A stretch of 55,607 nt of DNA from Candidatus Falkowiibacteriota bacterium (GTDB taxonomy: Bacteria > Patescibacteriota > Patescibacteriia > Patescibacteriales > Patescibacteriaceae): positions 1 through 55,607 of the forward strand of contig CAIUCZ010000017.1 of assembly GCA_903897785.1 (NCBI GenBank), given 5' to 3'. Positions 44,166 through 47,903 of the stretch are shown here, piece by piece. The position numbers were made by a program, and so were the translations under genes. Position 1 is the first letter of the stretch. Each line of letters starts with the position of its first letter. The notes below the pieces were generated by a model. That model searched no databases. It saw nothing but the letters and a program-made list of their open reading frames with translations, and was not told the DNA's origin.

Positions 44166-47144
44166 TTATAGTTTAACCAAAGCGATCTCTATCGCTTGGC
44201 CGTTTTGTTCAATCGTAATTTTTGCCGGCAAATCGTCCGGCATTTCCCAAAGCAAAGCTTGGGCCAGAGTATCTTTGATTATACCATTTTTTTGCCCTTC
44301 CAGCCAAGCCTGAGTTTTGGCGTCAGTTTTTGCATAAATTGTAATCCGATCATCGATGGTTAACCCTGTTTGTTTGCGCAAAGCATTAATCGCCCGCACC
44401 ACGTCGCGCGCCGCGCCTTCGGCTTTAAGCTCGTCAGTCATGGTTGTGTCGTGCCCGACATCCTCACCAAATTTAATTTCTTTGACATTGTCTTCGTCTC
44501 TAATTAACTGTAAATACTCATCAGCCAATTTCAAATCTGGGATTGTAGCAGCTTGCAACGGTTGACGAACTTTTAATTTAAGTTTGTCTCTATCGGCTAA
44601 AAGTTTTTCAATCAAAATTCTAGTTGCATGCATTTTACTTAAAGCTTCTTTATCTGTTACTTCCGGCAAATCACCAAGCTTGGGCCAAGCCTGCAAGTGA
44701 ACACTATTTTTATTATCACTAAAGCTATCGTGTAACTGTTGCCAAATACTCTCTGCCATAAATGGCATGAATGGCGCGATAATTATCGCCAACTTTTCTA
44801 GAACTAATTTTGTGGTCGCTAAAGCCGCTTGCTTATCAGCTTCGTCGTCGCCCTTGAAACGATCGCGCGAACGACGAATATACCAAGTGGAAAATTCATT
44901 GATAAAAAATCCAATCGGTCTAACAGCGCTTGGCAAATCATACTTGTCCATAGCCATCGTCACGCCAGAAATTAACTGCTCCAATAAAGCAACAATCCAT
45001 TGATCAAGAATATTCTGACTAACGACTAACGACTCACGACTTTCAACTTTTTCGTCCGCATACAACTGATAAAAATTCATCACATTGTTTAAAGTGATTA
45101 CATATTGACGAAGAACGTCCGCCACGCCGGCCTCGGAAAAATTCAAATTCTCCGCTTGCATCACCGGGCTGGACAGAAGATAAACGCGCAACGCGTCGGC
45201 GCCATATTTTTCCAACAATAAATTCGGATCAGGATAATTTTTTAATCTCTTGCTCATCTTTTTGCCATCCTCGGCCTGAACAATGCCGTTGACGATGACA
45301 TGATTAAACGCGTGCGTGTCGTTGATCGCTACCGAAAGCAGGTGCAAATAATAAAACCAACAGCGCGTTTGATCCACGCCTTCGGCAATAAATTCGGCCG
45401 GAAAATTGGCCTCAAACTTTTCTTTGTTCTCAAACGGATAATGCAACTGGCCATAGGGCATCGAGCCGGCCTCGAACCAGCAATCCAAAACATCAGGCAC
45501 GCGTTGCATCATCCCGCCGCATTTATCGCAAGCAAAGTTTACTTTGTCCAAATAATCTTTATGTAAATCTTCAATCTTCTGCCCGCTCAACTTTTCCAAT
45601 TCAGCCACACTGCCGACAACTTTGGTATTGCCGCACCCGACTAACGACTCATGACTAACGACTTTCGACTTGCCTGCACACCTCCAGATCGGCAGACAGC
45701 TGGCCCAAAAACGCTGGCGAGAAATCGACCAATCGCGCGCGCCTTCCAGCCAGTTGCCAAACCGGCCGTTCTTGATATGCGCCGGCGACCAATCAATCGT
45801 TTCCGCTTGCCCCAACAGCTCGCCTTTGATTTTTGTGACATCGACAAACCAAGAACTGGTGGCGTAATTCAATAACGGCGTGTCGCAACGCCAGCAGAAA
45901 GGATAGCTGTGCTCGTATTTGGCTTTGGCAAATAATAAATTTTTGCCGGCCAAGTATTTAATAATTGCCACATCAGTCGCACCATGGTCATCGATCGGCT
46001 TGACGTGCAGACCGGCAAACTCGCCCGCTTCCGGCTTGATGACGCCGTTCATGCCGACGTGCTGAATAAACGGTAAATTATATTGTTTACCCAAATTCAA
46101 GTCGTCTTCGCCAAACGCCGGCGCGATGTGCACCACACCCGTGCCGTCTTCGGTCGTCACAAAGTCGGCAGCATAAATTTGCCAACCGTTTTCTTTGTCT
46201 TTTATTTTTTCATCATGAATATAATAATCAAACAGCGGTTCATATTTTTTACCGACCAAGTCCGCGCCTTTAAATTCTTTGGTTATTTCAACCGCTTGAT
46301 CTTTAAAAATATCTTGAACTCTGGCTTTGGCCACGATGTAGCTGTCATTCCTGCGCATGCGGGAATCTGGATCCCCGCCTGCGCGGGGATGACACAGAAC
46401 GTAATCTATTTCGGAGCCAACCGCTAACGCCACATTGCCGATCAACGTCCACGGCGTTGTCGTCCACGCCAAAACAAAAGTGCCAGGCTGGTCGACCAGC
46501 TCAAATTTGGCAATGCAAGATAGGTCCTTGACATCGCGATAGCCCTCTGACACTTCCGACTGCGACAAAGTCGTTTCGCAGCGCGGACAAATATGCATTG
46601 AACGATAGCCTTCATAAACCAAACCTTTGTCCCACAATTGGCCGAACGCCCACCAGACCGATTCCATAAAATCTTTATCCATGGTTTTATAAGCGTGTTC
46701 CATATCCACCCAGCGCCCCAAACGGTTAATGGTTTTTTGCCACTCATCGACATAAGTCAAAACGCGAGCCCGACAAGCCTCGTTAAATTTATCCACGCCA
46801 AATTCGATAATATCTTTTTTGCCTTTGAACCCCAATTCTTTTTCCACGATATTTTCAATCGGCAAACCGTGGCAATCCCAGCCCCATTTGCGCTCGACAT
46901 GATAACCTTTCATCGTCCAATAACGCGGCACCGCATCTTTCATCACGCTGGCGACAATGTGGCCGTAGTGCGGCGTGCCAGTGGCAAACGGCGGACCGTC
47001 GTAAAAAACATAGTCACCATGAGGCGCGGTCTGTTCTAATGATTGCTCGAAAATTTTATTTGCTTGCCAAAAATCCAGCGTTTGATGTTCGCTGGCCACC
47101 GCCGCTTCGGCCGGAGAAAGTTTTTTATTTTGTTGATCATTCAT
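44166..47144 (-). CDS. ileS: Isoleucyl-tRNA synthetase
   Basis: Attaches isoleucine to tRNA-Ile and edits valine. The 992-residue product has the HIGH motif as HYGH in GTPHYGHIVASV, the WGWDCHGLP segment, and the editing domain with TTPWTLIGN. KMSKS appears as KMSKR in DGKKMSKRLKNYPDP, and the anticodon domain follows. The synthetase carries at least three in-frame insertions of dispersed repeats. One is a 50-base REP-like palindrome at 46344-46393, encoding HPRAGGDPDSRMRRNDS inside the editing domain. The others are two GACTAACG tandems at 45017-45050 and 45639-45670. These stretches have no counterpart in ordinary IleRS, yet the frame stays open. Confidence 0.96.
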   Translation of the reverse strand: MNDQQNKKLSPAEAAVASEHQTLDFWQANKIFEQSLEQTAPHGDYVFYDGPPFATGTPHYGHIVASVMKDAVPRYWTMKGYHVERKWGWDCHGLPIENIVEKELGFKGKKDIIEFGVDKFNEACRARVLTYVDEWQKTINRLGRWVDMEHAYKTMDKDFMESVWWAFGQLWDKGLVYEGYRSMHICPRCETTLSQSEVSEGYRDVKDLSCIAKFELVDQPGTFVLAWTTTPWTLIGNVALAVGSEIDYVLCHPRAGGDPDSRMRRNDSYIVAKARVQDIFKDQAVEITKEFKGADLVGKKYEPLFDYYIHDEKIKDKENGWQIYAADFVTTEDGTGVVHIAPAFGEDDLNLGKQYNLPFIQHVGMNGVIKPEAGEFAGLHVKPIDDHGATDVAIIKYLAGKNLLFAKAKYEHSYPFCWRCDTPLLNYATSSWFVDVTKIKGELLGQAETIDWSPAHIKNGRFGNWLEGARDWSISRQRFWASCLPIWRCAGKSKVVSHESLVGCGNTKVVGSVAELEKLSGQKIEDLHKDYLDKVNFACDKCGGMMQRVPDVLDCWFEAGSMPYGQLHYPFENKEKFEANFPAEFIAEGVDQTRCWFYYLHLLSVAINDTHAFNHVIVNGIVQAEDGKKMSKRLKNYPDPNLLLEKYGADALRVYLLSSPVMQAENLNFSEAGVADVLRQYVITLNNVMNFYQLYADEKVESRESLVVSQNILDQWIVALLEQLISGVTMAMDKYDLPSAVRPIGFFINEFSTWYIRRSRDRFKGDDEADKQAALATTKLVLEKLAIIIAPFMPFMAESIWQQLHDSFSDNKNSVHLQAWPKLGDLPEVTDKEALSKMHATRILIEKLLADRDKLKLKVRQPLQAATIPDLKLADEYLQLIRDEDNVKEIKFGEDVGHDTTMTDELKAEGAARDVVRAINALRKQTGLTIDDRITIYAKTDAKTQAWLEGQKNGIIKDTLAQALLWEMPDDLPAKITIEQNGQAIEIALVKL
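45017..45050. repeat. GACTAACG tandem inside ileS
   Basis: Units gactaac, gactaac, gactcac and gactttc lie in frame, encoding VESRESLVVS. Confidence 0.85.
45639..45670. repeat. Second GACTAACG tandem inside ileS
   Basis: In-frame units encoding KSKVVSHESLV between the catalytic-domain zinc region and the following segment. Confidence 0.85.
46344..46393. repeat. REP-like palindrome inside ileS
   Basis: GTCATTCCTGCGCATGCGGG on the left and CCCGCCTGCGCGGGGATGAC on the right form a hairpin like the intergenic copy at 39053-39120. It is read in frame within the editing domain. Confidence 0.9.
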
Positions 47145-47238: not shown

Positions 47239-47267
47239 TTGACAGCCGCCTGATAATTTGCTATATT
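47239..47267 (+). promoter_or_regulatory. Consensus promoter of the 47274 RNA
   Basis: TTGACA (47239-47244), a 17-base spacer, TATATT (47262-47267). It points into the gap between the ends of ileS and the nuclease-like gene. Confidence 0.8.
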
Positions 47268-47273
47268 TTTATT

Positions 47274-47412
47274 GTCAACTATGATTTTTTGCGGGGTTGA
47301 AATGCAGAAAGGCTCTACTGCGGAGCGCGAGTAGTTCCCGTTTACGGGACAACCAAAACGCTACGATGAAGGAACGCCACCCTTCCAACTCCACAAAAGC
47401 TCATAGTTTTTT
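47274..47412 (+). ncRNA. Candidate structured small RNA of about 140 bases
   Basis: A consensus promoter is followed by a sequence whose two ends pair over 23 positions (47277-47299 with 47386-47408: 19 Watson-Crick, two G-U, two mismatches) and which then runs into six U (47407-47412). Three perfect local hairpins lie inside: CTACT...AGTAG (47315-47334), TCCCGT...ACGGGA (47336-47349) and GAAGG...CCTTC (47368-47385). No coding frame is evident. It matches no RNA family I recognise. Its last 50 bases are antisense to the 3' end of the nuclease-like gene. Confidence 0.65.
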
Positions 47413-47903
47413 AAATACTTTTCGTCTCGTATCCGAAAAATTGTCACCACCATTATTTTACTGACCTCGTTTTCAGTTAAACATTGCAACGAGCATAGAT
47501 ATTCATAATTTTCAATCTTTTTAACCAGACAATAATCTCCGCTTTTGGAGATTTTATTTTTATACAGTCTGTCCGGATATTTAATAATCAAATGCAAATG
47601 TCGGACAACAAAATCAAATTCCTCAGCCGGTTTTCTGTCGTATAAATGTTTTAAAACTTTGGTATTTAAATAAACTTTGGCCTCAAAAAAATTAACTTCT
47701 TTCAAAACAACTTCTGTTAAACGGCAGACATAAACCTCGTCATTGGCCACAATTACTTTCGGCAAAGTATTTTCAACGTATTTATGAAAAAGGTTGTAAA
47801 CTACGCGCCTCCTTTTTGGCATAAAATATTTCAAAGTCAAAACATAAAGTCGAGGCGGGAACGATTGTCCTATTTTTTTTGTGGTTTGTTTGCATTCTTC
47901 CAA
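47361..47903 (-). CDS. Unknown protein resembling RelE-like (PBECR) nucleases
   Basis: 180 residues, or 153 if translation starts at the second Met (47822, MPKRRRV), which I think equally likely. The C-terminal 100 residues have the order LNTKVLKHLYDRKP, HLHLIIKYPDRLYKN, DYCLVKKIENYEYLC, IMVVTIFRIRD and LLWSWKGG. That looks like the phage-barnase-EndoU-ColicinE5/D-RelE-like nuclease group: a substrate strand pair, a conserved His, and a closing strand. This is a by-eye resemblance only. The gene stands between valS and ileS, with no partner antitoxin coding gene. Its last codons overlap the opposing structured RNA. It is AT-richer than its neighbours. Confidence 0.6.
   Translation of the reverse strand: MEECKQTTKKIGQSFPPRLYVLTLKYFMPKRRRVVYNLFHKYVENTLPKVIVANDEVYVCRLTEVVLKEVNFFEAKVYLNTKVLKHLYDRKPAEEFDFVVRHLHLIIKYPDRLYKNKISKSGDYCLVKKIENYEYLCSLQCLTENEVSKIMVVTIFRIRDEKYLKNYELLWSWKGGVPSS

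Follow-up and report, generated by a model that had tools for sequence, protein, structure and literature searches.

The window analysed here, a stretch of 55,607 nucleotides from a Candidatus Falkowiibacteriota bacterium, carries a plus-strand structured RNA of approximately 141 nt, preceded by its own promoter, and the minus-strand gene of a putative PBECR3-type nuclease converges on it and ends inside it. A preliminary description of this DNA had placed an unannotated structured RNA in a gap between genes. Homologues with compensatory changes firmly support the RNA; the gap is not empty, as a conserved gene on the minus strand (47361-47822), missed by that description, covers the 3' 52 nt of the RNA in antisense. 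The locus comprises the following features:

47239-47244, plus strand: -35 box TTGACA of the RNA promoter, sigma-70-like
47262-47267, plus strand: -10 box TATATT, extended (TG precedes), after a 17-nt spacer
47272-47412, plus strand: structured RNA, skipping-rope-like, long form, supported by homologues and covariation; transcript ends predicted
47277-47299, plus strand: 5' strand of closing helix P1, pairing with 47386-47408 as 8+6+7 pairs; double changes in 16 of 21 pairs
47304-47321, plus strand: hairpin P2 (GCAG/CUGC) with loop AAAGGCUCUA and conserved motif AGAAA-GGCUCUACUGCGG, partly common with skipping-rope (GGAAAGGCUC)
47324-47362, plus strand: P3 (47324-47328/47358-47362) around hairpin P4 (47335-47340/47345-47350); double changes in 4 of 5 and 5 of 6 pairs
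47363-47385, plus strand: ACGAUG motif and hairpin P5 (47368-47372/47381-47385), a 3' domain common with skipping-rope
47386-47408, plus strand: 3' strand of P1, antisense to the C-terminal codons of the nuclease
47407-47412, plus strand: run of six U (six T in the DNA) at the RNA end, a possible terminator, unconserved in the family
47361-47822, minus strand: PBECR3-type BECR-fold ribonuclease, putative toxin, 153 aa, convergent, with its last 52 nt within the RNA

Promoter and conserved fold of the RNA

The promoter proposed earlier, TTGACA-17-TATATT, is present at 47239-47267 with 11 of 12 consensus matches and a TG before the -10 box. Upstream of the RNA in 23 loci, the mean best promoter score is 9.0 of 12; shuffles and the opposite strand both average 7.2. 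The score of a single locus is unexceptional in about half of the loci. The segment 47274-47412 has a minimum free energy (MFE) of -46.2 kcal/mol (z -3.80), which none of 200 shuffles equalled, in keeping with the earlier impression of more order than chance. The six U noted at the end of the closing helix are there, but they are not conserved, as the RNAs of several relatives end in, for example, CCTTT, GTTC or GCGA instead, and in the window the run doubles as antisense Lys/Asn codons of the nuclease gene; for both reasons the claim of a terminator is weak.

The fold was examined in an alignment of 23 sequences, each from a different locus of the candidate phyla radiation (CPR). A structure of 41 pairs leaves 91.3% of the cells in the 23 sequences paired, with double changes in 29 of the 41 pairs. 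Its covariation score is 0.512 versus 0.241 in shuffled alignments and at most 0.16 when the register is slid, and it holds 163 double-changed cells versus 57 in shuffles. The structure was picked by eye on the same alignment, which favours it to some extent in the slid control; such a choice accounts for neither the result of the shuffles nor the number of double changes. The preliminary description had staked its RNA on such compensatory changes in homologues. Its closing helix of 23 positions corresponds to the 21 pairs of P1 (47277-47299 with 47386-47408). Its inner hairpins fared less well: inner structure does exist, in the form of P3, P4 and P5 as defined by covariation, but it differs from the MFE fold, the MFE hairpin GCUCU/GGAGC and the helix GUAG/CUAC not being conserved by the family. 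P5 is paired in 100% of cases and has double changes in 4 of 5 pairs, whereas P2 is consistent with pairing and no more, since its GCAG/CUGC is invariant.

G-U cells greatly outnumber A-C cells (93 versus 19), which marks the plus strand as the RNA strand. The best conserved class of positions is the unpaired columns outside the overlap with the reading frame (1.32 bits; 1.96 for GGCUCUACUGCGG), and the variable parts are helix pairs; a spacer-like variable region is absent. Two loci (L053, L061) have loop insertions that can form hairpins themselves. We looked for tandem repeats within the RNA and found none, all 23 loci having a single unit. The motifs of the RNA are kept in four loci where the reading frame of the nuclease is changed (L003, L035, L046, L047), and the RNA is also kept in L063, where the overlap is approximately 6 nt. 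The RNA, its strand and its fold are thus well supported.

The nuclease and its pairing with the RNA

Among 15 relatives of the minus-strand protein, 13 match Pfam PF18812 (PBECR3), the best at 3.9e-12, and the window protein itself scores 27.2 bits, just below the 30-bit cut-off. Its AlphaFold model (pLDDT 85.9) matches in Foldseek the PBECR domains of phage minor-capsid/MuF-C proteins (probability 1.00, TM up to 0.64). An invariant histidine, H59, lies in helix 54-63 and an invariant threonine, T127, in the late strand 120-130, matching the histidine plus S/T active site that PBECR and colicin-D-like RNases have in the BECR fold (PMC5512222). Fold and active site suggest that the protein is an RNase, and it may be toxic. 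A sequence search of the PDB gave no real relative, and a fold search of the PDB gave none below E 0.001, the best being a toxin-antitoxin entry (probability 0.80). The CPR-type protein had no match in plasmids, phages or IMG/VR; a profile comparison links the CPR and phage PBECR3 proteins (E 5.3e-5, probability 67).

Among 61 genomes searched at the DNA level, G005 (89%) and G044 (70%, another family) hold clear relatives of the RNA, both of which have a promoter-like site and show compensatory changes. The covariance-model search of related genomes that had been suggested earlier, with a model built from three sequences, then yielded one further RNA from another family of the same class. In all four loci the RNA contains the end of the same minus-strand gene. 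When GTDB contigs were scanned with four of these proteins alone as queries, 17 loci were found, including contigs labelled Wolfe-, Gribaldo-, Moranii-, Collier-, Woese- and Nomurabacteria, and 15 of the 17 have a convergent RNA at E <= 1e-20. The overlap is mostly exactly 52 nt, and 82-100 nt in a few loci. The two loci lacking the RNA are a fragment match and L048, on an Ignavibacteria-labelled contig, where the nuclease gene (1453-1965) ends right after WSWK and we found no RNA beside it. In a phylum-wide search of 380 genomes, nine had the protein and ten the RNA. The nine are common to both; in the tenth, G435, the RNA is degraded and matched weakly, and we recognised no gene for the protein. 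Each of the eight protein loci new in this search also carries the RNA. As the protein queries were chosen for an adjoining RNA, these counts mean that the pairing is conserved while the proteins diverge (to 36% identity), not that PBECR3 proteins universally have such an RNA. With this scope, the pairing of the RNA with a PBECR3-type nuclease family is well supported. By inspection, the genes next to the cassette vary, from valS/ileS in the window to ruvA (L003), a gene for a RarA-like ATPase (L035), a ComM-like gene (L057) and metG (L062), which fits a mobile cassette.

Relation to the skipping-rope RNA of phages

No Rfam family reached the gathering score when the window was scanned, and searches for tRNA and tmRNA found none. 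By bits, the top weak match was RAGATH-18, a TnpB guide RNA, which was rejected at 17.4 versus a gathering score of 44.9 (E 1.5), as was a PreQ1 match on the minus strand, also below gathering score. In a permissive Rfam scan of the stretch the best E-value belonged to skipping-rope (RF02924; E 0.36), over most of the RNA. To our knowledge, skipping-rope has no known function. The window RNA scores 16.6 bits against this family, far below the gathering score of 36.7, and the best cassette genome reaches 22.6. Of the 23 cassette genomes, 13 nevertheless have their RNA matched by this model, always in one register, although a few of these genomes have a better-scoring place elsewhere.

In the viral sequences of IMG/VR, a pattern scan found 22 skipping-rope loci; we scanned 18 of them with Rfam, and every one reaches the gathering score. 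A model of the CPR RNAs (R2) gave seven matches in 235 kb of viral loci, each on a skipping-rope RNA and on the same strand, and conversely nine of the ten matches of a model built from skipping-rope (R3) fall on CPR RNAs, with E 0.008 for the window. The register is the same in Rfam, R2 and R3. GAAAGGCUC and the GAUG-stem-CGCC blocks are common to both RNAs and visible by eye, and the window RNA has the core architecture of skipping-rope: a closing helix, the GAAA-type hairpin P2 (GAAAGGCUC), GAUG with P5 and its CGCC-type loop, and an adjoining PBECR3 gene. It differs in length (approximately 141 nt versus 80 nt), as its closing helix is longer and P3/P4 forms an additional domain, and it is convergent with the nuclease gene and below gathering score, whereas skipping-rope lies in tandem downstream. 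Taken singly the scores are weak, and the CPR RNAs share ancestry with one another, so that the evidence that the CPR RNA is a longer, divergent relative of skipping-rope is good but not independent; we regard the kinship as well supported. The earlier statement that no family landmark was recognised thus holds for Rfam families at gathering score, but does not extend to this distant kinship. Bacteroidota were searched as a source of skipping-rope with no match in 198, a search in which the positive control was silent too. An exact scan of IMG/VR with the longer RNA motif found none, and six stretches with the shorter motif were discarded, as neither R2 nor R3 supported them.

The RNA of phages also adjoins the nuclease. 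A PBECR3-type gene lies just upstream, on the same strand, in five skipping-rope loci (L088, L091, L092, L093, L097); the four that were scanned all exceed the Pfam cut-off, and L088, a partial copy, was judged by sequence. Only these five of approximately 16 loci found through the RNA adjoin such a gene, and the RNA may therefore have other partners. It lies just downstream of an NYN gene in L086 and of a weak AbiQ-like gene (E 1e-3) in L084, not of a PBECR3 gene. Starting from the protein alone, a viral scan gave eight PBECR3 loci, on five contigs already seen and three new ones (L108, L111, L112), and all eight have a skipping-rope RNA at gathering level just downstream. Two Streptococcus prophages have the same arrangement; the gene is annotated 'spbA', lies between lysin and attachment site, and is followed by the RNA 20 nt past its stop codon.

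Skipping-rope was also seen within phage accessory RNA clusters, directly followed by a DUF3800-I RNA in L098 (198-405) and convergent with a 6A RNA in L113. A weak relative of the RNA (L072, 1501-1626; E 3.7e-9) has no nuclease gene and adjoins a gene for a 213-aa MIIYIDESGDSGF protein resembling DUF3800.

Proposed action of the RNA and alternative explanations

We consider it probable that the cassette is a type-III-like toxin-antitoxin pair of new architecture, in which the PBECR3-type nuclease is bound and inhibited by the RNA. The minus-strand gene of this two-gene cassette would provide a BECR-fold endoribonuclease, and the RNA on the plus strand, transcribed from a promoter of its own, would adopt its compact fold and act against the protein by direct binding and inhibition. 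If the supply of RNA dropped, as might happen once a phage has stopped transcription in its host, the enzyme would be released; the cassette may therefore have a role in phage defence. The layouts bear on this reading. The pair is convergent in CPR and in tandem in phages, and neither antisense pairing, impossible in the phage layout, nor a sense 3'UTR element, impossible in the CPR layout, explains both. It is simplest to suppose that the RNA meets the protein, and the comparison points to an action of the RNA on it.

Convergent 3' overlap is known from type I pairs of Bacillus, and here the last 52 nt of the gene (82-100 nt in a few loci) lie opposite the 3' part of the RNA. The RNA could accordingly pair with the nuclease mRNA at its 3' end and block translation or trigger RNase III cleavage, but we find this quite unlikely, given that the RNA is kept in L063 with hardly any overlap, that its most conserved motifs lie outside the overlap and that the phage relatives have no antisense. 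Strict pairing with a structured RNA would also suit a ribonucleoprotein effector, and a relation has been discussed between the RNAs that accompany AbiF-type RNases and the origin of Cas13 (PMC12373285). That the nuclease uses or processes the RNA as a cofactor, guide or natural substrate nonetheless appears unlikely, as its variability consists of helix pairs with no spacer-like region. We know of no need for an RNA cofactor among BECR toxins. As BECR proteins are typical toxins and a spacer-like region is absent, we prefer inhibition.

Its site at the gene's 3' end, together with the terminal U's of the window copy, would also suit a 3' stabiliser or a bidirectional terminator between convergent genes, with no role in trans. 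Such an element is very improbable in view of the unconserved U-run, the separate promoter, the conserved unpaired motifs and the excess of G-U over A-C cells, which marks one strand only. Finally, the 3' half of the RNA is coding on the other strand, and the conservation could be due solely to this, or the fold to chance; covariation already refutes this reading, with compensatory changes in the 5' strand outside the reading frame and a motif that survives both frame changes and the near absence of overlap.

Inhibition of the nuclease by the RNA would resemble the logic of the type III systems ToxIN, CptIN and TenpIN (PMC5086642), which likewise combine an RNase with a neighbouring structured RNA. 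In those systems, however, the toxin is of the ToxN type rather than PBECR3/BECR, the antitoxin consists of tandem repeats rather than a single unit, and it precedes the toxin within a single operon, separated from it by a terminator, rather than lying convergent or, in phages, downstream. Type I toxins are small and hydrophobic, unlike this 153-aa globular nuclease fold, and their RNAs are antisense to the toxin mRNA, whereas the overlap here, usually 52 nt, falls to approximately 6 nt in L063. Another likeness is AbiF, a prophage-borne toxin that the conserved structured RCd22 RNA neutralises through direct binding (PMC12373285); in the cassette such binding is a proposal, AbiF is a HEPN protein with its RNA motif (RF03085) upstream of the gene, and we saw no sequence relation. 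The PBECR domains of phage polyvalent/MuF-type proteins, proposed to be injected effectors, have the same fold and H + T/S catalytic pair as the window protein (PMC5512222), which differs from them in being a solo protein of CPR chromosomes with an RNA partner.

In the openly accessible papers searched, no RNA antitoxin is named for CPR, and neither PBECR nor skipping-rope is tied to an antitoxin. The cassette adds a candidate RNA-protein toxin-antitoxin architecture, present in CPR; skipping-rope gains a testable function through its tie to one nuclease family in two distant settings, and the contrast in orientation between CPR and phages separates the idea of an RNA binding protein from antisense control. 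It is conceivable, and we suggest it tentatively, that skipping-rope and its CPR relatives form one RNA-antitoxin superfamily, found both in ultra-small bacteria and in phages, that guards several RNases of unrelated fold (PBECR3, NYN, AbiQ-like). This would constitute a new RNA-protein toxin-antitoxin class in which gene orientation is free, and some of the phage copies that lack a nuclease may then act as decoys against host toxins.

Elsewhere in the window, GACTAACGACT-type heptad repeats occur in eight copies, including 45003-45047 and 45625-45669. Two of the eight lie within the ileS frame, with peptides like KVESRESLVVSQ, and are thus apparently inserted in frame into IleRS. Also within ileS (46345-46395) is a palindromic repeat, TCATTCCTGCGCATGCGGGAATC...CCCGCCTGCGCGGGGATGAC, where the protein reads CHPRAGGDPDSRMRRNDS.
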